A stretch of 64,000 bases of DNA from Pseudodesulfovibrio tunisiensis (GTDB lineage: Bacteria > Desulfobacterota > Desulfovibrionia > Desulfovibrionales > Desulfovibrionaceae): contig NZ_CP094380.1 of assembly GCF_022809775.1 (NCBI RefSeq), forward strand, positions 1,909,001-1,973,000, written 5' to 3'. Of the stretch, positions 48,014 to 62,471 are shown one piece after another (the first letter of the stretch is position 1; each line of letters starts with the position of its first letter). Below the pieces are notes generated by a model, which did not search any database, was not told the DNA's origin, and saw only the letters and a list, made by a program, of their open reading frames with translations. A program made the translations under genes and the position numbers.

Positions 48014-50313
48014 ATGAAGGACATGACCATCAAGCCAGACAGCGACATGCCTGATCGCGACGCGCTCTCCCGTCCCGGGTCGGGAAGAACGCTCATGCGT
48101 CGATTCCGCTTTGCCCAGACCTCCATCATCGCTCTTGTGGTGATGCTCTTTGCCTCGGCCATCATTTCATTCAACGGCTACCGCCTGTACAGCCAGACCG
48201 AGGAGCGGATCAACGGCATATCCCGGCTGGCCGAGACCAGTCTGGCCTCGGCGGTCTGGCAGGTGGATCACGCCTCGGTCCGCGACTTCATCAACGCCCT
48301 GTTTCAGGACGACACCATTGTCTATGCACAGGTGGTCACGGGCCGGGAGATCATGGCCTCGCGCTCGCGTCCCGCCTTTGCCGGCCGGGCATTCCAGGAG
48401 TTCCGCAAGGATGCCGGGTTCATCACCCATACCGTGGAAATCCGCAAATTCGGCGACTGGATCGGCACCTTCAACCTCGCGGTTTCCACCCGCCACATCC
48501 GGGAGGACATCCTGTTCAACGCGGGCGTGTCCCTTGTGCTGGCTCTGGCCCTGATTCTGGCCATTTCCCAGACCACGCTTTCCTTTGCACGCCGAAGGCT
48601 GTTCCGCCCGCTTCACGAACTGGAAAAGTCCGCCACGGCCATTGCGGACGGCGATCTGGATGCCCCGGTGGACACCTCGGCTCCGGACGAAATCGGCAAT
48701 CTTGCCCGGGCCTTTGACGACATGCGCGAATCCGTTCGCCACCTCATCGAGGACCTTCAGGCCGCGAACGTCAAGCTGGAGTCCCATCGCAGCGCGCTGG
48801 AAAGCAAGGTCAAGGAACGCACCGAGGAACTCAAGCGCAAGAACGTGTCCCTGAACCGCGCCCTTGAGGAAGTCCGGCAGGCCAAGCAGGCCGCGGAGGT
48901 GGCCAATCTGGCCAAGAGCCGTTTTCTGGCCAGCATGAGCCATGAAATCCGTACGCCGATGAATGCGATTCTGGGCATGGCCGACATTCTCTGGGAAACC
49001 CGTCTGAGCGAGGATCAGGCCCGCTACGTGCAGGTTTTCCGCTCGGCCGGGGAAAGCCTGCTCGGCATTCTCAATGACATTCTGGACCTGTCCAAGATCG
49101 AGGCCGGAAAAATGGATCTGGAGCATACCCGGTTCAGCCTGTCCGAACTCGTGGATCGCACCTGTTCCGTTGTCGAACCCAGAGCCAGAGCCAGAAAAAG
49201 CAGCTGACTTTCGAGTATGTCATTGCTCGGGACGTGCCCGACACATTGCGGGGCGACCCCACGCGCGTGGGCCAGATTCTCGGCAACCTGCTGGGCAATG
49301 CGGTCAAGTTCACGCATCAGGGCCGCATCCGCCTCAGGGTGGAGCGGGAGCCGGGCTCGACTCCGGCAACCCTGCATTTTTCCATCGAGGACAGTGGGGT
49401 GGGCATTCCCACGGACAAGCTGTCCTCGGTATTCAACTCCTTTACGCAGGCCGACAGTTCGACCACTCGGGAGTATGGAGGAACCGGGCTCGGGCTGGCC
49501 ATCTGCCGCCAGCTCGTGGAAATGATGGGCGGCAGGATATGGGCGGAGAGCCGCCCGGGCAAGGGAAGCACGTTTCACGTGACCCTGACCTTTGACACCC
49601 CGCCCTCGCAAATGGCGTCCGAGGACGCGCCCCAGCCCCCGGGCCAGCACTCCCTGCCCAGACGAAACATACTTCTGGCCGAGGACTCCAAATACAACGC
49701 CTTTGTCATCCAGACCTATCTCAAGGACACGCCCTGCTCCCTCACTCTGGTGGAAAACGGCAGGGAAGCACTGCGCGCCTTTGAGCAGAACGCCTTCGAC
49801 ATCGTGTTCATGGACGTGCAGATGCCGGTCATGGACGGCTTCGACGCCATGCGCGCCATCCGCGACATGGAGGAACGCACGGACAGGAACCGGACCCCCA
49901 TCGTGGCCATGACCGCCTATGCCCAGCCCGAGGACGCCCACCGCTGCCGCGAGGCCGGAGCGGACCACCACCTGCCCAAACCCGTGAAGAAAAGCGATCT
50001 GTTCGAGATCATCACCGCGTTCACGGGCGGCAATTCATCCCTGTCCGCGCATTCGGCAGCGGACAGGCCGGAGGACATGGACCGGATACGCTCATGGCTG
50101 CACAAGGCGTTCTCGGCCAGCGATGCCGGGGATTTCGCCGATGTGGCACAGGCGGCGCAGGCTCTGGCGGAAATGGGCGAGACCATGGGCCTGCCGTCCC
50201 TGTCCGGCTACGGCACGGCCCTGATGGATGCCTCGGAAGACCGCAACCACGAAGCCACGACAAGAATACTGGCCTCGCTCTCGGGCTACGTGGACCGCAT
50301 GGGCATCTTCTGA
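48014..50313 (+). pseudogene. Hybrid sensor histidine kinase, frame broken at an A5 run
   Basis: A membrane hybrid kinase in two frames. The first (48014-49207) has a transmembrane helix ([18 protein letters not shown]), a periplasmic sensor of about 110 residues, a second helix, a HAMP domain, a coiled coil and the phosphoacceptor [12 protein letters not shown]. The second frame (from about 49208) has the ATPase ([34 protein letters not shown]), a receiver domain (DIVFMDVQMPVMDGF) and a ~75-residue Hpt-like helical tail without a clear phospho-His. Adding one A to AAAAA at 49196-49200 gives [16 protein letters not shown] and one ~766-aa protein. It is either a sequencing deletion or a real break. 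It lies 83 nt upstream of the partner-switching operon. Confidence 0.82.
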
Positions 50314-50395: not shown

Positions 50396-51562
50396 ATGCA
50401 GACACGCAAACGACTTCCGGCCCCGCGCATCCTCTTCCCGGCCCTGGCCGTGCTGCTGCTTGCCGCATTCCCGGCGCTCGGGCAGGACGAATTTCCGCTG
50501 CGGCCCTTCTATCCGGGCGTGGCCAGCATTTCCACCAGCGAACTGGCCGAGGTCTATGATTCGGCCGTGATCATCGACATCCGCACCCGGTTCGAATTCG
50601 ACGTCGCCCACATGGCCAGGGCAAAGCGCATCCCTCTTGCGGATGGCCAATTCCGACTCGGCCTCAAGGGACTACGCGGCCTGAACAGCGCCGCCCCCCT
50701 CGTCTTCTACGCCAACGGTCCCACGGACAGCAAAGTATATGAAGCCGTGCGCAAAGCCATGCACATGGGCTTTGCCAACGTATTCGCCTATGATGCAGGC
50801 ATCTTCGCCTGGATATCCACACAACCGGAACATTCCTACCTTCTCGGCAAATCTCCGGCCCGCCCCGAACGCATGATCCCGCCGCGCATGTTCGAACGCC
50901 GCCTCCTCTCCCGTGAGGCGTTCACGGAACGCGCGGCCCTGCCCGATGCCGTGGTCATCGACATCCGCTCCCGCTATCACCGGGAATTCGAACCCAGGAT
51001 TCCCGGGCTCAGAAACATTCCCATGAGCAGCCTGCTGGAAATGATCGACTCGCGCATCTGGATGGAAAAACGGCTGCTCTTTCTGGATCAAAACGCCACG
51101 GAAGTCCGCTGGCTCCAGTACTTTCTGGAAGCGAACGGCTACGTGGACTACGCATTCCTGCACAGTGGCGTGGACGGCTGGCCCAAGGACCTCCGCCGCC
51201 GGGTTCAGGCCGAGGAAGCACGACTGACCATGAACCAGCATGCGCTGGCCGAGCTGGCAGGCAACATGCTTCTGGACCGCACGGCCCTGCGGCTGCTCAT
51301 GCGCGTCCTGTCCCGGATACGTCTGGAAAACATCGCCGTGGCGGAATCCTCGACCCTGCTGGCCGCTCTGGAAATTTCCCCGGAGGCATTGCGCGCGGCA
51401 GCGGAATCACTCCGCCGCGAACAGGCGCTGCTCTACAGCACCATCGGCGACACCTACATTTTCGAAATCAATCCCGGACTGGCATGGCGCGGGGAAATGG
51501 GCGGCACGATCTGGAAGGAGCGCGCCACCCAGTTCCTGAACGCGGTGCAGAGGAGACGATGA
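50396..51562 (+). CDS. Periplasmic tandem rhodanese-like protein lacking active-site Cys
   Basis: A 388-aa exported protein (signal ILFPALAVLLLAAFPALG). Two rhodanese folds are visible: domain 1 about 40-145 (AVIIDIRTRFEFDVAHMARAKRIPL ... LVFYANGPTDSKV) and domain 2 about 170-275 (AVVIDIRSRYHREFEPRIPGLRNIPM ... LLFLDQNATEVRW). The catalytic-loop Cys is replaced by Ala in the first (YANGPT) and Asp in the second (FLDQNAT), so neither should transfer sulfur. The C-terminal ~100 residues are helical. Its stop overlaps the next start (ATGA). It probably acts as a protein-interaction or sensing partner in the signalling operon. Confidence 0.82.
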   Translation: MQTRKRLPAPRILFPALAVLLLAAFPALGQDEFPLRPFYPGVASISTSELAEVYDSAVIIDIRTRFEFDVAHMARAKRIPLADGQFRLGLKGLRGLNSAAPLVFYANGPTDSKVYEAVRKAMHMGFANVFAYDAGIFAWISTQPEHSYLLGKSPARPERMIPPRMFERRLLSREAFTERAALPDAVVIDIRSRYHREFEPRIPGLRNIPMSSLLEMIDSRIWMEKRLLFLDQNATEVRWLQYFLEANGYVDYAFLHSGVDGWPKDLRRRVQAEEARLTMNQHALAELAGNMLLDRTALRLLMRVLSRIRLENIAVAESSTLLAALEISPEALRAAAESLRREQALLYSTIGDTYIFEINPGLAWRGEMGGTIWKERATQFLNAVQRRR

Positions 51563-52554
51563 TCATGCAGGCACGCCCGCTCGTCCCCTTTCGTCCGCTT
51601 GCCGCGGTTCTCATTATCCTCTCCGTGCTGACCGCAGGCCCGGCCCCGGCCATGGAAAGGGCACGTCTGGTCCTGCAATGGACACATCAGGCCCAGTTCG
51701 CCGGCTATTACGTGGCCAGAGAGAAAGGGTACTACGCGGAACTCGGTCTTGATCTGGAAATCATGCAGGGAGGACCGGACCGCATTGCCATGGAATGTCT
51801 GGAAACAGGCCGCGCCGACTTCGGCTCCATGTTTCTGGCCACGGCCATCGAGCACCGGGCTTCAGGCATGCCCGTGATCTGCCTTGGCCAGTTCGTGCAG
51901 AAATCCGCGCTCATGCTGGTGGCGAGAAAGGGAACAGGCATTACCGGAGCAACCGACCTGAACGGCAGAAAGGTCGGCATCTGGGCCAATGAGTTCCAGC
52001 TCCAGCCAAGGGCCCTGTTCCGCAGGCTGAACATCCGCACGCAGCTCATTCCCCAGACATCCACCCTTGACCTGTTCCTCAGAGGCGGCGTGGCTGCGGC
52101 CTCGGCCATGTGGTACAACGAATACCACAAGCTGATCATGCACGGCGTGGACGAGGACGAGCTGGTCCCCTTCTTTTTCAGCGACATGGATTTGAATTTC
52201 CCGGAAGACGGCCTGTACTGCATGGAATCCACGTGGCAGGAACGTCCCGAGGCGTGCAAGGCACTGGTGCAGGGCACGGCAAAAGGATGGGAATACGTCT
52301 TTGCCCACCCGCACGAGGCTCTGGACATCGTGCTCCGCAACATGACCGAGGCCAGACTGCCCCTGAACCACGTGCACCAGCGCTGGATGCTGGACCGGAT
52401 GCGCGACATCATCCAACCGGAAAACGGAACCGTTCCCCTTGGCGAACTGTCCCGCCGGGATTTCCGCCGCGTGACCGAAACCCTGCTGGAAACCGGCTTC
52501 ATCCGCTCCGCGCCAGCCTACGAAGCCTTCTACAAAGGGGTGCCCCATGACTAG
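51559..52554 (+). CDS. THI5/NMT1-type periplasmic substrate-binding protein (no transporter nearby)
   Basis: A 331-aa exported binding protein (signal PLAAVLIILSVLTAGPAPA). Family pattern: LVLQWTHQAQFAGYYVAREKGYYAELGLDLEIMQGG, ECLETGRADFGSMFLATAIEHRASG and LNGRKVGIWANEFQLQPRALF. These proteins bind pyrimidine or aromatic precursors for an ABC importer, yet the operon has no permease or ATPase. It starts in an ATGA overlap with the rhodanese-like gene, has AGAGGAG upstream, and overlaps the phosphatase gene by 8 bp. A ligand sensor for the neighbouring phosphatase is more likely than uptake; that is inference. Confidence 0.85.
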   Translation: MIMQARPLVPFRPLAAVLIILSVLTAGPAPAMERARLVLQWTHQAQFAGYYVAREKGYYAELGLDLEIMQGGPDRIAMECLETGRADFGSMFLATAIEHRASGMPVICLGQFVQKSALMLVARKGTGITGATDLNGRKVGIWANEFQLQPRALFRRLNIRTQLIPQTSTLDLFLRGGVAAASAMWYNEYHKLIMHGVDEDELVPFFFSDMDLNFPEDGLYCMESTWQERPEACKALVQGTAKGWEYVFAHPHEALDIVLRNMTEARLPLNHVHQRWMLDRMRDIIQPENGTVPLGELSRRDFRRVTETLLETGFIRSAPAYEAFYKGVPHD

Positions 52555-54490
52555 AAACACGGGCATCGCCGCCAAGCTCGCCCTGCTCGTGCTGGGGACC
52601 GCCCTGCTCGTGCTGGCTGCAGTTCTGGCATACAACTATCAGGTTTCCAGGGACATCATCGTACGCGAGGCCGAACGCAACGTCCGCAACCTCGGCCGGA
52701 AGACCGTGCACCAGTTCGGTCAGGTACTGGTGCCCATCGAGCGCACCGTGCAAAACATGGCCATCGCCCTTGAGGACGCGAATCTGACCCGTGACGACAT
52801 CATCGCCATGAACCGCCGCATTCTGGAAAACAATCCGGACATATTCGGCATGGCCATCGCGTTCGAACCGTTCGCACTGGGCAAGGACCACCTCTACTTC
52901 TCGCCCTACTGGTACCGCTCGCAGGGACGCACCGCCTTCACCATGCTGGGCGGCCCGGACTATCGGTACTTCTACATGGACTGGTATCAGGTGCCCAAGG
53001 AGCTGGACCACCCGGCATGGACCGAACCCTATTTCGACGAGGGCGGCGGCGGGGTCATCATGACCACCTACTCCGTACCCTTCTATCGCACGGAAAACGG
53101 CAAGCGCGTGTTCGCGGGCGTGTGCACGGCGGACATTTCCCTGGAATGGCTGCGCAGAAACGTGTCCGACATCCGGCTCTACGAGAACGGCTACGCCGTG
53201 GTGCTCTCCAAGCACGGCACCTATGTCTATCATCCCATGGAACGGCAGGTCATGAGCCACACCATCTTCTCCCTCGCAGTCGAGCGCAACGATCCCTCGA
53301 TCCGGGCGATCGGCAAGGCCATGATCAACGGGGAAACCGGATTCGTGGCCCGCAAGAGCGTCAAGGACGACAGGGACAGCTTTCTCTACTACACGCCCCT
53401 GCCCATCGGAGGCTGGTCCCTCGGCATCCTGTTCGCCCGGGACGACGTGCTTGCGGGAGTTCAGGAACTCACACGGGACATGCTGCTCATCGGGCTGGCC
53501 GGGTTCCTGCTGCTGGCCGCTGCCGTGATCTGGATAGCCCGCTCCATCACCAGCCCCCTGCGCGACCTGTCCGGCGCGGCGCTGGAAATCGCGTCCGGCA
53601 ATCTGGAGCTGCAACTGCCGGAAATCAAAAGCCGGGACGAGGTGGGCGATCTTGCGGACTCGTTCCACATCATGAAGCGCGACCTCAGGGCCTACATCGA
53701 CAATCTCACGAACACCACGGCGGCCAAGGAACGCATCGAATCCGAACTCCGCATTGCCCGGGAAATCCAGATGGGCATCCTGCCCAAGCTCTTCCCGGCC
53801 TTTCCGGACCGCCCGGAATTCGATGTGTTCGCGTCCATCGAACCGGCCAAGGAAGTGGGCGGCGATCTGTACGACTTCTTTTTCGTGGACGAACGCCACT
53901 TCTGCTTTCTGGTTGGCGATGTCTCCGGCAAGGGCGTTCCCGCAGCCTTTTTCATGGCCGTGACCAAGACCCTGCTCAAGGTGGTGTCCGAACGCGGTCT
54001 TGATCCCGGCGAAATCCTGTCCAAGGTCAACAGCGACCTGTCCGAGGAAAACGAATCCTGCATGTTCGTGACCCTGTTTCTGGCGATCATGAACATCGAG
54101 ACCGGCGAAACACGCTATGCCAGCGCCGGGCACAATCCGCCGCTCCTCGTGCCCTGCCACGGCGACCCGGAATGGATTCCACCCTCGCGTGAACCTGTTG
54201 CCGGGGTCATGCAGGGCATGGAATACACCACCAACGTCATGACCCTGCGCCCGGGCGATATCCTGTTCGTATACACGGACGGCGTGACAGAGGCCATGAA
54301 TCCGAAGCGCGAACTCTTTTCCGAGCAGCGGCTCATGGATTTGGCCTCCTCGGCCGAGGGCATGAAAGCGTCCGGCCTGATCGGTCAGGTGGACGCGGCC
54401 ATCAAGGAATTCACCGAGGGAGCGGAACAGTCCGACGACATAACCATGCTCGCCATGCAGTATTGCGGAGCATGCCCAGACAAGGAATAA
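52547..54490 (+). CDS. Membrane PP2C-type (SpoIIE/RsbU) phosphatase with Cache and HAMP domains
   Basis: A 647-aa transmembrane serine/threonine phosphatase. Helix 1 (KLALLVLGTALLVLAAVLAYN) is followed by a double-Cache-like periplasmic domain (about 35-300; GMAIAFEPFALGKDHLYFSPYW, WTEPYFDEGGGGVIMTTYSVPF), helix 2 (LLIGLAGFLLLAAAVIWIA), HAMP (ITSPLRDLSGAALEIASGNLE) and a SpoIIE phosphatase domain. Metal-binding residues are intact in GGDLYDFF, VGDVSGKGVPAAFF, DGVTEAMN and SDDITMLA. It should dephosphorylate the STAS protein encoded 5 nt downstream, in response to a periplasmic signal. Confidence 0.93.
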   Translation: MTRNTGIAAKLALLVLGTALLVLAAVLAYNYQVSRDIIVREAERNVRNLGRKTVHQFGQVLVPIERTVQNMAIALEDANLTRDDIIAMNRRILENNPDIFGMAIAFEPFALGKDHLYFSPYWYRSQGRTAFTMLGGPDYRYFYMDWYQVPKELDHPAWTEPYFDEGGGGVIMTTYSVPFYRTENGKRVFAGVCTADISLEWLRRNVSDIRLYENGYAVVLSKHGTYVYHPMERQVMSHTIFSLAVERNDPSIRAIGKAMINGETGFVARKSVKDDRDSFLYYTPLPIGGWSLGILFARDDVLAGVQELTRDMLLIGLAGFLLLAAAVIWIARSITSPLRDLSGAALEIASGNLELQLPEIKSRDEVGDLADSFHIMKRDLRAYIDNLTNTTAAKERIESELRIAREIQMGILPKLFPAFPDRPEFDVFASIEPAKEVGGDLYDFFFVDERHFCFLVGDVSGKGVPAAFFMAVTKTLLKVVSERGLDPGEILSKVNSDLSEENESCMFVTLFLAIMNIETGETRYASAGHNPPLLVPCHGDPEWIPPSREPVAGVMQGMEYTTNVMTLRPGDILFVYTDGVTEAMNPKRELFSEQRLMDLASSAEGMKASGLIGQVDAAIKEFTEGAEQSDDITMLAMQYCGACPDKE

Positions 54491-54495
54491 TCCTC

Positions 54496-54822
54496 ATGCA
54501 ACTCACCAGCGAAACCAGAAACGGCTTTCTCGTTGTCAGCGTATCCGGCCGCATGGACGCGGTCACGGCCCCGGAATTCGAACGCGAATGCTCGGCCCTG
54601 AGCACGCCCGGCACCCGACTCGTGGCCGACCTCTCCGGTCTGGAATACATCAGTTCCGCAGGGCTTCGGTCCATACTGGCCACGGCCAAGCGCCTCAAGG
54701 CGAACAAGGGAGACATCCGCTTCTGCGGTCTGCAAGGCATGGTACTGGAGGTCTTCGAAGTCTCTGGCTTTGCCGCCATGTTCTCCATCCATCCGAATCA
54801 GGAAGCCGCCGTTGCCGTCTGA
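54496..54822 (+). CDS. Anti-sigma-factor antagonist (STAS domain, RsbV type)
   Basis: A 108-aa single STAS domain. The phosphorylatable Ser lies in LSGLEYISSAGLRSIL. Fold markers FLVVSVSGRMDAVTAPEFE and IRFCGLQGMVLEVFEVSGF are present. Unphosphorylated, it would bind and sequester the RsbW-type kinase; the kinase phosphorylates it and the upstream PP2C removes the phosphate. ATG 54496 has AAGGA 9 nt upstream. Its 3' end overlaps the kinase gene. Confidence 0.92.
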   Translation: MQLTSETRNGFLVVSVSGRMDAVTAPEFERECSALSTPGTRLVADLSGLEYISSAGLRSILATAKRLKANKGDIRFCGLQGMVLEVFEVSGFAAMFSIHPNQEAAVAV

Positions 54823-55258
54823 CGCGCATCACAGTTCGAAAATCACGGCCCGGGCCGTTCCCGGCATTCTTCCGGAATTCCGTTCCCATGTTCTGCAATG
54901 CGCTTCCAGGGCCGGGGCGTCTGCCGCCCAGCTCACGCGCATCGAACTCGCGTTCGAGGAAGCCCTGATGAATGTCTGCACCCATGCCTACCCGGAGAAG
55001 ACGGGCACGGTCTCGGTCGACTGCTTCACGAAACGGGAAAAAACCGGAGCTCCGCTTTTCTGCGTCCGACTCACGGACCATGGAGAGCCCTTCAACCCTC
55101 TTGAGCATACGCCCCGCCCCACTCCTGCGGACATGAACTCGCGTACGCCCGGCGGCATGGGAATTGTCCTGTTGCAACGCATGGTTGACCAAGCCGACTA
55201 TTTCCGAACCGATACCGCAAACTGCATGATTCTCTGTTTTTCCCTTTCTGTCCGATAA
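54812..55258 (+). CDS. Anti-sigma-factor-type serine kinase (RsbW-like HATPase)
   Basis: A 148-aa GHKL ATPase of the RsbW/SpoIIAB class. The N box is ELAFEEALMNVCTHAYP, G1 is VRLTDHGEPFNP and G2 is GGMGIVLLQRMVD. No ATG lies near the domain start. TTG 54812, with GGA 9 nt upstream and an 11-bp overlap with the STAS gene, is the most likely initiator; an ATG at 54770 would overlap more. The downstream target (sigma factor or another effector) is not encoded next to it, so the output of the module is unknown. Confidence 0.87.
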   Translation: MPSDAHHSSKITARAVPGILPEFRSHVLQCASRAGASAAQLTRIELAFEEALMNVCTHAYPEKTGTVSVDCFTKREKTGAPLFCVRLTDHGEPFNPLEHTPRPTPADMNSRTPGGMGIVLLQRMVDQADYFRTDTANCMILCFSLSVR

Positions 55259-55284: not shown

Positions 55285-55306
55285 CACATGAGGAGTTGTT
55301 CATGTG
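55285..55306 (+). promoter_or_regulatory. Inverted repeat upstream of CII-like copy 2
   Basis: CACATGA (55285-55291) and TCATGTG (55300-55306) are separated by 8 bp. A third CATGTG lies at 55399-55404 just before the ribosome site. They flank the promoter at 55346-55375. Confidence 0.55.
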
Positions 55307-55415: not shown

Positions 55416-55730
55416 ATGTTTGAGAAGAATTTGACCAAGAAGATGCAGGATGTTGTTCTGGAAGGAAGAATTCCGGCAAAAGAGATCTGCTCGCGGATCA
55501 AGAAGCCGTATTCGACCCTCCTCCGCGAACTGAACCCGTTTGACACGCATGCCAAGCTGGGCGCGGAAACCATGTTCGACATCGTCAAGGTGACACACAA
55601 CGTATCCGTCCTGGAATTCATGGCCAGGGAGCTCGGGTACACCCTGACGCCGCTGGAAGCCATGGAGCGCAGACCCAGACCAGCCAAGGTCGCGGCCAAG
55701 CGCATTCGCAGGCAGGCCGCAACGGTCTGA
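55416..55730 (+). CDS. CII-like small regulator, copy 2
   Basis: A 104-aa paralog of the protein at 44426-44686: both start MFEK, and share KKPYSTLLRELNPFDTHAKLG-type and ETMFDIVKVT segments. It differs in a basic C-terminal extension (RRPRPAKVAAKRIRRQA) that could bind nucleic acid. It has its own sigma-70-type promoter and terminator and no phage neighbours. The family resembles the phage CII/CP76 regulators; the regulated genes are unknown. Confidence 0.8.
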   Translation: MFEKNLTKKMQDVVLEGRIPAKEICSRIKKPYSTLLRELNPFDTHAKLGAETMFDIVKVTHNVSVLEFMARELGYTLTPLEAMERRPRPAKVAAKRIRRQAATV

Positions 55731-57779: not shown

Positions 57780-57998
57780 ATGGCAAAAGAAGAAGGCATT
57801 ACGGTCAACGGCGTCGTTGAGGAAGCTCTGCCCAACGCCATGTTCCGCGTGGAACTGGAAAACGGGCACACCATTCTCGCACACATCTCCGGCAAGATGC
57901 GCAAGTTCCGCATTCGCGTCATGCCCGGGGACACGGTCACCGTTGAGCTGTCCCCTTACGATCTGACGAGAGGACGCATCACCTTCCGTCCCCGCTAG
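57780..57998 (+). CDS. infA: Translation initiation factor IF-1
   Basis: A 72-aa S1/OB-fold protein that binds the ribosomal A site during initiation. The sequence is canonical: [40 protein letters not shown] and [20 protein letters not shown]. Length is exactly that of the family. Very strong GAGGAGG ribosome site. Single gene. Confidence 0.98.
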
Positions 57999-60900
57999 CA
58001 GACGTAAAAAGGGAGAAGCCTTCCGGCTCCTCCCTTTTTGCTTGTTTCTTCATCCTTCCCTATTTCGGCTTGGCGACCTCGATGGTCTTGCCCGGCTGCA
58101 ACTTCCATTTTCCTGTCATAGATGACCACCGGAATGGATACGTCGCCCTTGTGGTAGGCGGTCATCTTCACGGATCTGTGATCCATGTGGATGTCGAACC
58201 AGACCTTGCGGTGCACGAAACTGAAGGACAGCTCGCCCCAGTGCTCGGGCAGGTCCGGATACACACTGATGGGATCGGACGACAGATTCAGGCCCGCGAA
58301 ATCCTGCTTCAGGACTTCCAGAGTTCCGGCCATCACGCCGGTATGAATGCCCTCCGGCGTGGTTCCGCCCTGCGAGTCGAAAATATCGCTCTCCATGGCT
58401 TCCATGAACCAATCCCATGCAATATCGCTTGGATAGATGTACTTCGCGATAACCGAATGCACCACCTTGGATAAAGTTGATCCGTGACTGGTGCGCTTTT
58501 CGTAGAAGTCGTAGTTGGCCTTGAGCAGCTTGAGCGGATCATCGACGGCATAGCCGAGCTTGCCCAGAATCCGGGAGACCTCCTCGGGTTCAAGCACGTA
58601 CCAGGTCATGAGGGTATCTGCCTGCTTGGCCACCTTGTAGTGATCCGGCGAATCGTTCTCGGCCTTGAGAATGCGATCCATGCGATGGATCGAATAATAC
58701 CGCTTGCGGTAGTCGTCCCAATCCAGCTCATCCAAATCCATGTAGCCATCGAACTGGCTGATGATGCCGTCCTTGGTGAAGATGACATTCAGCTTCTCGG
58801 TCATGCCGCGCCACTTGACCACGTCGTCATCGGTCAATTCGATCTTGGCCTTGAGCCGTTCAAGCATTTTGGCCGGAATCTCATTCATGACCTCAAGCGC
58901 CTTTTCCATGAGCCAGGCGACCATGATGTTGGTATAGGCATTGTCCTTGAGCCCGGGGACATCCGACCCGGGCAGGGCTTCGTGGAACTCGTCCGGCCCC
59001 ATGACCCCGGCGATGTGGAACCGACCATCGTTTTCGTCGAATTCCGCGATGGAGCCCCAGAACTTGGCGATATCCAGCAGCATTTCCGCGCCGTACTCCT
59101 TGAGAAAGGCCGTATCTCCGGTCCAGGAAACATAGCGCCAGACATTGACGAACACGGCGATGGACACGTGCCGCTGCCGTCGGGAAAGGTCCGGGTCCCA
59201 TTTCTTGGACTCGGGATTGTAGTGCACCTCCTGCGTTTCCTCGGACCCGTCATCCGCAGTCTGCCATGGATACATGGCGCCTTCATAGCCGTTCTCCCGC
59301 GCATATCTGCGGGCCGCGTCCAACCGGTTGTACCGGTAGAGCAGCAGTCCCTTGGATATTTCCGGGAAATTGGCGTCGAAGAACGGCAGGATGTACAGTT
59401 CATCCCAGAAGATGTGGCCGCGATAGGCCTCGCCATGCAGACCGCGCGCAGGCATGCCCGCGTCGCGTCCCGCATTGTGCGGGCTGGCCGTGACCAGAAG
59501 ATGATAGGTGTGCAACCGTAGCACGCGCTGCACGAACCTGTCGCCCGTGACCCGCATGTCCGCCTTCTGCCACAAGCCCTTCCACGCCTTGGCATGCGGT
59601 CCGAAAACGCCCTGAAAGGTCTTCACGCCTCCCAGCGCGTCCACGCACATCTCCTTGAGATTGCCGGGCGTCTTGTCCAGCGAAGTGCGCACGTACACAT
59701 ACTTTTCAAGGCAGTAATTGGTGTTTTCCAAGGCCAGAAACTGCATTTCCTCGGTGACCTTGGCCTTCTCCTGAAACACGCTCTTGCGCATGTCCAGAGG
59801 CTTGCCGTTTTCCAGCAGCATGGTCTTGGCGGCCATGACGACCTGATATCGGGAGTGGCTGGTTTCCACATGCAGGAAGATGCCATCCCCGGCCTTGCCT
59901 CCGGCCACGCGGCACAGATGATTCGACGTGAGCTTGGAATACCGGGGCACGCCGCCGTTGGTGACATTGCCGTCGATGGAGGATCGGAACGTGATCTTAC
60001 CGGAATAGTTCAGGGGCATGACCTCGAACCGAAGTGCGCACAAATGGGCGTCCGCCATGCTGACCAACCTGCGGCTGGAGATGCGCGTGATGCGCCCGAC
60101 CTTGTCCTTGACCACAAGATCGCGTTCCATCACGGCTTCACGCATGTTCAGCCGGTGGGAATAGCTCAGGATTTCCATGGAAAGCGGACTGACGAACTCG
60201 CCGGCTCCGATCTTGAATTCCACGGGCAGCCAGTTCGGGCAGTTCACGAAATCATTGTTGTAGATTTCCCGGCCCTGCACCATGCTCGGCACCTTGTTGA
60301 AGATGCCGGAAATGTAGGTTCCCGGGTAGAAGTAGTAGGACGCGCATTCGCATTCGTATGCGCCGCGCGTACCCAGATAGCCATTGCCCACTGCGGTCAG
60401 GGTTTCACGGAGCTTTTCATCGCCCGGCTCGAATCCGCTGTACACATGGTACCACTCGTCCGTGGCCATGCCCGTATCGAACCATTCCTCGAAATCGTCC
60501 ACCGTGATTTCGCCCAGATCGGAAACCACGAGATCCGCGCCGAACCGCTTGAGCAGCTCGCCCGCAATGTTTCTGGCAATGCCGAGCGTCATGCCGAAAT
60601 TTCCGGCGCGCCCGGCCTGAACACCGGATATGGCGTCCTCCACCACGATGCACTGACCGGGATGCAGGCCCATCTCTTTTGCGCAGGTCACGAAAATGTC
60701 CGGATCAGGTTTGCCCTTGAGGTTCAACTCTGCGGACACCATGCCGTCGACCCGGGCATCGAACAGGTCTTCCAGCCCGGCGAGCTGAAGCACGAGCAGG
60801 CAGTTTCGGCTGGATGTGGCAACGCCAACCTTCACGCCCATGTCCTTGAGCTGCTTGATCAGGTCCACGGAAGTGTCGAAGACCTCCGGACCTTCACGCC

Positions 60901-61225
60901 GCAGGATTTCCTGATACAGATCATTCTTGTAGTTGCCGATGCCGCAGATGGTCTCCAATCCCGGAGCGTCTTCCGGAGTGCCCGGATCAAGGCGGATGTT
61001 GCGGGATTTCAGAAAGCTCAGGACGCCTTCGAACCGGGGCTTGCCGTCCACGTAGTTGAGGTAATCATGCGTCCTGTCGAACGGTTCGAAAGGCACGCTC
61101 TTTTCGTCGGCCCTTTTCTTGAGAAACTCGTTGAACGCGGTTTCCCACGCCTGGGCATGCACCCGTGCGGTCCGCGTGATGACTCCATCGAGATCAAAGA
61201 CTACGCCACTCAATTTGACAGCCAC
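57995..61225 (-). CDS. Beta-phosphoglucomutase (HAD) fused to GH65 glycoside phosphorylase/hydrolase
   Basis: A 1076-aa fusion as read. Residues about 1-225 are a HAD beta-phosphoglucomutase: nucleophile [18 protein letters not shown] and [15 protein letters not shown]. The rest is GH65, with the N-terminal beta-sandwich ([23 protein letters not shown]), the barrel ([24 protein letters not shown]) and the catalytic acid Glu in [13 protein letters not shown]65 phosphorylases split trehalose, maltose or kojibiose to beta-glucose-1-phosphate, which the HAD half would convert to glucose-6-phosphate. The GTG start has GGAG 5 nt upstream. Near the end, removing one A from the A4 run (T4 at 58108-58111 on plus) gives [18 protein letters not shown] and a stop at 58060, which avoids overlapping infA. 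Confidence 0.88.
58007..58038. terminator. Bidirectional terminator between infA and the GH65 fusion gene
   Basis: A five-A run, a GGGAGAAGC / GGCTCCTCCC stem with mismatch, and a five-T run. It serves infA on plus. On minus it follows the inferred GH65 stop at 58060, which supports the frame-corrected end. Confidence 0.75.
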
Positions 61226-61271: not shown

Positions 61272-62471
61272 CTACCCGAGGGTGCCCAGAATGGTGACCA
61301 GCATGTCCGGCTGCGGCACGATGACCGCGTCCGGGCAGAGGCTTTGCACCCGTTGCGCCAGGTCCTGTTTGTCCGTCACGTAAATGGCCTTGGCATCGCG
61401 GGACAAATCCAGCGCCGCCTCCAGCATGGGCACGTCGCTGTTCGTATCTCCGCAAATGAGATGCGGTCCGCGATGCATTTCCAGACCAAGTTCGCGATTG
61501 AGATATTTCACACCATCACCCTTGTCGAAATCCTTGAGTTCATCGCCCGAGGATTCCACGGTCAGGATGATCTCCACGTCCAGCCCTGTATCCTCGATGC
61601 GAAAACAGGCATGTTCGGGGTCGAGTTCGGCCACGAGCCGTTCCAGTTCGGCCATGAACGCGTCGGACTCGTCTTCGGCAACGGACTTGTTGATGTCCTG
61701 CCGGGCCACGGTGGACTGGCCGAACTTGAATTGCAGCCCCGACCCGATCAGGGTGAATTTCTCGTTCTCGGGTTTGGCCACCAGTTCTTCCAGTCTCCGA
61801 TTCAAGCGGTCCATGGCCGCCTGCTTGTCCGGCGGAATGGCCAGCCGCCTGAGTCGTCCCTCCAGATCCAGACACTCGCGCCCCTTGGATGCCGCGTAAT
61901 AGAACTCACCCTCGGGTACCACACTCATCTGGCGCAGTCCGTCCATGGGGGCGGAGGTAAGAATCACCGGGCTGGTCGCTCCGGACCGGGCGAACCGGGC
62001 CAGAAAAACCGCATTGTAGATGGACTGCACCGAGGTCAGATACCGAGCGCAGTAATTGTTCACGGTGCCGTCCCGATCCGAAACAAGACAGTTGAGGTCC
62101 AGACCGTCCAGCATCGCCTGCCCCTGAGCCACGTAATCCCGGAATCCGGGATGCAAGTCTGCCAGATGATCGAGAAAGGCCTGCTCTCCCTGTTCAAGGT
62201 AGATGAGATCCTTTTTCATTTCGTTGATTTCATAGGCCATATCCAGAGCTATCTTCCGTTCCCGATCAAGGGCGAGTTCCTTGCGTCCCTCCAGTTCGGG
62301 CACATCCTCCAGACTGGCAAGGGCATTCTTCAGGGATTGGGCGGCATCGTCCCGGGCCTGACGGCCGTCCAGAATCCGACTCACGGCATCGTGACGCACT
62401 TCGCGCGTCGCGCCCATGAGCGCATAAAAATCCTTGAGCGTTTTCAATTCGACCCGTTCCACCTGAGCCAT
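61272..62471 (-). CDS. HAD-family phosphatase, trehalose-6-phosphate phosphatase-like
   Basis: A 399-aa HAD hydrolase. The nucleophile motif is LVSDRDGTVNNY and the C-terminal Mg-binding motif is ICGDTNSDVPMLEAAL. The N-terminal ~125 residues form a helical cap or oligomerisation region. It resembles sugar-phosphate phosphatases of the trehalose/sucrose group. Lying just upstream of the GH65 fusion in the same direction (46-nt gap), it suggests disaccharide metabolism, for example making trehalose from trehalose-6-phosphate. No trehalose-6-phosphate synthase gene is in the window. AAGGAGG precedes the ATG. Confidence 0.82.
   Translation of the reverse strand: MAQVERVELKTLKDFYALMGATREVRHDAVSRILDGRQARDDAAQSLKNALASLEDVPELEGRKELALDRERKIALDMAYEINEMKKDLIYLEQGEQAFLDHLADLHPGFRDYVAQGQAMLDGLDLNCLVSDRDGTVNNYCARYLTSVQSIYNAVFLARFARSGATSPVILTSAPMDGLRQMSVVPEGEFYYAASKGRECLDLEGRLRRLAIPPDKQAAMDRLNRRLEELVAKPENEKFTLIGSGLQFKFGQSTVARQDINKSVAEDESDAFMAELERLVAELDPEHACFRIEDTGLDVEIILTVESSGDELKDFDKGDGVKYLNRELGLEMHRGPHLICGDTNSDVPMLEAALDLSRDAKAIYVTDKQDLAQRVQSLCPDAVIVPQPDMLVTILGTLG

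Follow-up and report, generated by a model that had tools for sequence, protein, structure and literature searches.

The window analysed here is a stretch of 64,000 nucleotides of the Pseudodesulfovibrio tunisiensis genome (positions 1909001-1973000 of contig NZ_CP094380.1, G000:C1, in a single-contig genome of 3.61 Mb), and the system in question is an operon of five genes at 50396-55258 of the window, encoding a rhodanese, an NMT1-type binding protein, a PP2C phosphatase, a STAS protein and an RsbW-type kinase. The genes run in one direction and are tightly packed. The overlaps of 4 bp (rhodanese/NMT1), 8 bp (NMT1/PP2C) and 11 bp (STAS/RsbW) given in an earlier note, made from the letters alone, are exact, and to these is added a gap of 5 bp between the PP2C and STAS genes. 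The open frame is kept in all five genes. The features of the locus, with the evidence for each, are as follows.

48014..49207, + strand: hybrid histidine kinase, N-terminal part with a small sensor domain, HAMP and HisKA, frameshifted here (open reading frame (ORF) calls, Pfam)
49234..50313, + strand: hybrid histidine kinase, C-terminal piece (HATPase, receiver domain REC), in another frame (ORF calls, Pfam)
50396..51562, + strand: double rhodanese, exported, whose tail (residues 275-388 or so) is probably a winged helix; domain-1 loop cysteines lost (PF00581 in two stretches; alignment; structure model)
51559..52554, + strand: periplasmic binding protein of the NMT1/THI5 type and putative co-receptor (PF09084, E 1.2e-36; N-terminus resembling a signal sequence)
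52547..54490, + strand: membrane receptor phosphatase, PDC/dCache-HAMP-SpoIIE-type PP2C (PF07228, E 3.6e-50; motifs)
54496..54822, + strand: STAS antagonist with a conserved SSAG site (PF01740 and TIGR00377, both over cut-off)
54812..55258, + strand: RsbW-type kinase, HATPase_c_2, with a TTG start (PF13581, E 5.8e-23)
55285..55306, + strand: weak terminator-like hairpin 3' of the operon (one hit, where shuffled sequences gave 6.8 on average; not significant)

A promoter and terminator scan of the operon gave nothing above shuffled sequences. The products of the last three genes carry the motifs of a partner switch, in support of the periplasm-sensing system of that kind proposed in the earlier note. 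The SpoIIE-type phosphatase contains GGDxxD (at 438), GDVSGKG (457), TDGVTE (577) and SDDIT (629), which we take to be its metal-binding motifs, and GGDxxD is found in 37/42 aligned receptors, the remaining five being cyclases or cut by contig ends. The STAS protein offers a phosphorylatable serine in the motif SSAGL at 53, and an SSAG-type site is present in 22/22 aligned STAS sequences. The kinase is of the GHKL serine kinase type, with an N box and glycine motifs: it shows EEALMN and DHGEPF, and in the aligned RsbW rows GGxGI and DxGxxF occur in 22/22 and the N box in 19/22 (window protein included, by a wider pattern).

The surroundings of these genes were compared in even draws of genomes, 297 from the order and 198 and 395 from the phylum, none of the samples being complete. 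The NMT1 protein, an exported protein with a periplasmic binding protein fold, retrieved 28 further close homologues from the 198 phylum genomes (38-53% identical, E < 1e-60). In 27 of these a gene for a Cache receptor follows directly on the same strand, at an estimated distance of -7 to 105 bp, while at one locus there is none; such a pairing is what is expected of a receptor stimulated by a binding protein. The outputs of the 27 receptors are Cache-HAMP-PP2C in 22 (two of them partial) and Cache-HAMP-nucleotide cyclase in four (L188, L197, L201 and L200, the last assigned from its own sequence and its likeness to L201), and one receptor is cut by a contig end. The sensor class, PF22673 with PF02743, is the same in the 3/3 cyclase and 5/5 PP2C receptors scanned. 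No other observation argues as strongly for communication between the binding protein and the Cache domain as this exchange of output behind one kind of binding protein. In 11/20 fetched PP2C loci, and in 0/4 cyclase loci, the region contains homologues of both STAS and RsbW, frequently in the order STAS-RsbW-NMT1-PP2C; at one PP2C locus (L199) the STAS gene is about 3 kb away. Several remoter NMT1 matches are situated within long reading frames, and the one examined (L180) encodes an NMT1-PAS-histidine kinase. Beside the module, a GNAT-like gene stands just 5' of the STAS gene in L182, L191 and L194, all three with the order STAS-RsbW-NMT1-PP2C (56-66% identical among themselves, with a Pfam acetyltransferase match in one), and a long protein is encoded in L184 and L185, with a weak HATPase_c_2 match in one; these are leads to an output and not evidence of it.

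Closer to the window, the rhodanese query retrieved full-length relatives from 20 other genomes of the order sample (36-44% identity), 17 of the same genus and three of a second genus; 19 were fetched with their surroundings and the remaining one (G198) was examined as L060. The order rhodanese-NMT1-PP2C is present in 20/20 of these genomes and is thus not unique to the strain. Since only four SpoIIE places exist in the window genome and this order recurs throughout the relatives, the five-gene set is, as judged from gene order, far beyond chance, and a fortuitous adjacency of the genes is ruled out by the recurrence. Relatives of the second genus (L031-L033) have the five genes without the kinase, CII-like or aldolase neighbours of the window, so that simple inheritance of synteny does not account for the set; the L031 contig measures 7.4 kb, with only 1.3 kb upstream. 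The upstream kinase, the downstream CII-like gene (PF06892) and a class-II aldolase gene (PF01116) were seen in the genus only. The long rhodanese also lies 5' of NMT1-PP2C in a Nitrospirota genome (L055, Ca. Magnetocorallium), in whose fetched region STAS and RsbW were not found, and in L058, an 8.5 kb contig binned as Desulfobulbaceae which ends inside the PP2C gene. At L036 the NMT1 gene itself is split over two frames. As for the five genes forming a single unit, as first proposed, the leading three do hold together, but STAS-RsbW continues behind the PP2C gene in 11/20 long-rhodanese relatives only. A five-gene core is for this reason rejected, and the conserved core, to the extent that gene order reveals it, is the NMT1 protein and the Cache-HAMP receptor encoded behind it.

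The rhodanese begins with a signal-like hydrophobic stretch in 22/22 rows. Both cysteines of the domain-1 loop (YCN...C) are found in 21/21 aligned relatives and both are lost in the window strain, a count made without the short rhodaneses selected by pattern, while the domain-2 loop is without cysteine in all 22 rows, three relatives having one elsewhere in domain 2. With both loops cysteine-free, the window protein lacks the active-loop cysteine of a catalytic rhodanese. The name double pseudo-rhodanese, used in the earlier note, consequently fits this strain but is ruled out as a family trait by the domain-1 cysteines of its relatives. Searches with the long form's tail found weak matches to winged-helix families (RepL in 5/21, best E 1.6e-4; HTH_6 in 6/21, best 0.0037), and the topology predicted for it in the structure model, H-E-H-H-E-E, fits a winged helix. 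The window's own tail matched neither RepL nor HTH_6, a sequence search of the PDB with the tail gave 0 matches, and structural alignments of the rhodanese model covered for the most part residues 33-248 and so did not bear on the tail. The long rhodanese probably ends in a winged helix, a kind usual in DNA-binding proteins. Among Geobacter kin, Gammaproteobacteria and other groups, short forms lacking this tail are found; the contig scan for them used patterns including YCN..C, and is therefore biased towards the cysteine loop, and the best 80 of 138 matches were kept. CheY-like and other gene clusters also adjoin short rhodaneses. Some lineages have probably acquired the rhodanese as a periplasmic modulator, which may act with the upstream hybrid kinase, the phosphatase, or both. 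The proposal that both periplasmic proteins present a ligand to the phosphatase is supported for the NMT1 protein by its pairing with the Cache receptor, and needs revising for the rhodanese, a lineage-specific accessory whose partner may be the kinase in addition to the phosphatase or in its place.

Gene content, packing, motifs, the phylum-wide pairing of NMT1 with Cache receptors, the exchange of outputs and the lack of an adjacent same-strand ATPase of the ATP-binding cassette (ABC) type together lead us to favour, with some reserve, a reading in which the NMT1 protein gates a Cache-PP2C partner switch from the periplasm, the local STAS-RsbW arm being the output. The NMT1 protein would capture a small ligand in the periplasm and, once loaded, would dock on the PDC/dCache domain of the receptor encoded downstream, the docking being our inference. 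This would turn the cytoplasmic PP2C domain either on or off, and the phosphatase would in turn dephosphorylate a STAS protein, presumably the local one. The dephosphorylated STAS protein would then bind the RsbW-type kinase, which would thereby change partner, its target being freed or, were the switch to run in the other direction, held. Where a genome has no local STAS gene, the substrate of the phosphatase would have to be a different protein, for which the second STAS protein of such genomes is a candidate.

Several observations weigh against this reading. The STAS-RsbW pair does not follow in 9/20 of the long-rhodanese relatives, and 9/20 phylum PP2C loci show neither STAS nor RsbW within the fetched region, some of these contigs ending nearby. 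On a tree of the PP2C proteins no fewer than two changes are needed to explain the absence of the pair, two losses being the simplest case. As nine of the 20 closest relatives are without the pair and the tree requires at least two changes, the STAS-RsbW arm is, on comparative grounds, dispensable. A displaced orthologous pair was seen in G195 only (STAS and RsbW 55% and 44% identical to those of the window), the other pair-less genomes not having been searched with RsbW. The motif form GD[VAM]xGKG is present in only 28/42 aligned receptors. A target of the SigB/SigF type is doubtful because only four Sigma70_r2 places exist in the window genome, none of them at the operon locus, and a target of another type is plausible. 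Finally, an unlinked importer for the binding protein is possible, and the Cache domain may bind a ligand of its own. In the eight fetched loci without STAS-RsbW the next gene lies only 184-222 bp behind the PP2C gene, all four PP2C motifs are intact in 8/8 checked, and the window genome and eight pair-less genomes carry another SpoIIE-STAS set elsewhere. In the window genome a second partner-switch set is found at G000:C1:3048003-3059362 (partly in L141), with two SpoIIE places, a STAS gene and an RsbW-like gene.

The possibility of an unlinked importer leads to an alternative in which the binding protein is the orphan of an importer encoded elsewhere, the Cache-PP2C receptor senses its own ligand, and the two are only co-regulated. 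In structure the NMT1 protein is indeed closest to binding proteins of transport systems, those for thiamin and for the pyrimidine precursor of thiamin, and 3/7 of the other NMT1 genes of the window genome lie near an ABC ATPase. The same search found no same-strand ABC ATPase in the 50 regions around the module and an ABC ATPase of any orientation in 2/50, in both cases on the other strand from the module and in one about 2.8 kb away (3/7 vs 2/50, Fisher p 0.011); a permease pattern matched nothing near the module, nor in the control loci. An importer operon is rejected, there being no co-directional ABC ATPase with the binding protein in the relatives, and the earlier description of a binding protein without a transporter is upheld there as far as the ATPase goes. 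The orphan reading itself is made unlikely by the same scarcity of ATPases, by the pairing of NMT1 with Cache receptors in 27/28 loci, those with swapped output included, and by the fusion of a related NMT1 domain to a kinase. A Thi5-type enzyme was also considered for the NMT1 protein and rejected, as CCCFC, which we take to be the Thi5 motif, is absent from its sequence.

Another alternative concerns the hybrid kinase at 48014-50313, which does lie just upstream, as noted earlier, but is split over two frames here and is in one frame in 16/16 fetched same-genus relatives. It holds that two modules have merged at this locus, rhodanese with hybrid kinase and NMT1 with PP2C (STAS, RsbW), so that the rhodanese serves the kinase sensor and not the phosphatase. 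In other phyla, a same-strand receptor-like gene lies at most 310 bp from a short rhodanese match in 16/70 loci (L061-L064, L069-L073, L075-L078, L086, L095 and L119), and of the seven of these 16 genes that were scanned, 7/7 are chemoreceptors. The sensor domain of the kinase (profile match at G000:C1:1957125) resembles 16 receptor sensors from short-rhodanese loci with an hhalign probability of 95.7 (E 8.9e-9; some of the 16 come from receptor genes further off in these loci), compared with 0.1 for the Cache domain of the PP2C as control. The domain is also rare, with 12 matches vs 229 HAMP places in five genomes, a further copy being present at 3050047, within the second partner-switch set. 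However, the long rhodanese is found 5' of NMT1-PP2C with no such kinase seen adjacent in L032, L033, L055 and L058, 54/70 short-rhodanese loci are without such a neighbour by this clustering, of the six sequences in the sensor profile, four belong to these very gene pairs, and two of the genomes among the five counted contributed to the profile. Such a merger is a real contender, though we judge it somewhat improbable. The frameshift in the kinase, together with the loss of both domain-1 cysteines kept in 21/21 relatives, might instead indicate that the locus is decaying and the system being lost in this strain. This appears quite improbable, as NMT1, PP2C, STAS and RsbW are intact with the motifs tested, all five frames are open, and the kinase frameshift may be a sequencing error.

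The gating of a partner switch by the NMT1 protein may be set beside the systems it most resembles. Partner switching by RsbU/RsbP-RsbV-RsbW controls sigma B in Bacillus; the operon shares with it a PP2C phosphatase, a STAS antagonist and a GHKL kinase with the expected motifs, and differs in its periplasmic Cache input, its adjacent binding-protein gene and the lack of a sigma factor gene in the operon. SiaA of the Pseudomonas SiaABCD system is likewise a Cache-HAMP-PP2C phosphatase, and its family NF038263 is the best NCBIfam match of the operon phosphatase (E 1.3e-20, residues 320-637), but the score of 73.5 bits falls far below the curated cut-off of 700. Unlike SiaABCD, the operon has STAS and RsbW partners and an added binding protein, and no diguanylate cyclase. 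The NMT1 protein is only 21-23% identical to ThiY and thiamin-binding proteins (PDB 3ix1, 4nmy), and in contrast to these is encoded without an adjacent same-strand ABC ATPase. The rhodanese departs from double-domain rhodaneses and sulfurtransferases (PF00581) in its export, its probable winged-helix tail and its cysteine-free domain-2 loop, and here its domain-1 loop as well. With receptors stimulated by solute-binding proteins the operon shares the placing of a gene for a periplasmic binding protein next to that for a membrane receptor. Such stimulation is described in a passage of PMC9602780 for chemoreceptors, sensor kinases, diguanylate cyclases/phosphodiesterases and Ser/Thr kinases; PP2C phosphatases and adenylate/guanylate cyclases are not among the receptors named there. 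A literature search judged from titles and abstract openings, covering few subscription papers, gave no account of this gene set or of a PP2C partner switch with a binding protein. The operon is best seen as a PP2C partner switch that probably takes its input by binding-protein-assisted signalling: the general kind of receptor was already known, and the novelty first claimed for the system narrows to the partner switch as its output.

As to the neighbouring genes, the CII-like gene (PF06892) lies downstream of the operon at 55416-55730, and many genomes of the genus have a paralogue 5' of the kinase gene too. Further on, on the - strand, a HAD hydrolase fused to a GH65-type protein (57995-61225) adjoins a trehalose-6-phosphate phosphatase gene (61272-62471). 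A Pfam scan of the neighbouring ORFs included some apparently antisense frames, which gave no match.

A broader reading is that NMT1 and Cache-HAMP receptor form a portable input cassette mounted on varied outputs, PP2C partner switch or nucleotide cyclase, in the phylum (Desulfobacterota) and at least one Nitrospirota genome; to this Pseudodesulfovibrio and some others would add the exported two-cysteine winged-helix rhodanese, sensing sulfane sulfur or redox state, and one switch would be gated by two periplasmic signals; this remains speculative and is, in our view, rather unlikely in full. If the gating of the partner switch by the NMT1 protein is true, binding-protein-assisted sensing would extend to Ser/Thr phosphatases and partner switches, and the loci would constitute a natural experiment, in which the same binding-protein/Cache pair is joined to two outputs, and the same PP2C occurs with and without STAS-RsbW. 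It would also supply one partner switch of sulfate reducers with an entry point for a signal, of which the ligand and the kinase target would be directly testable.

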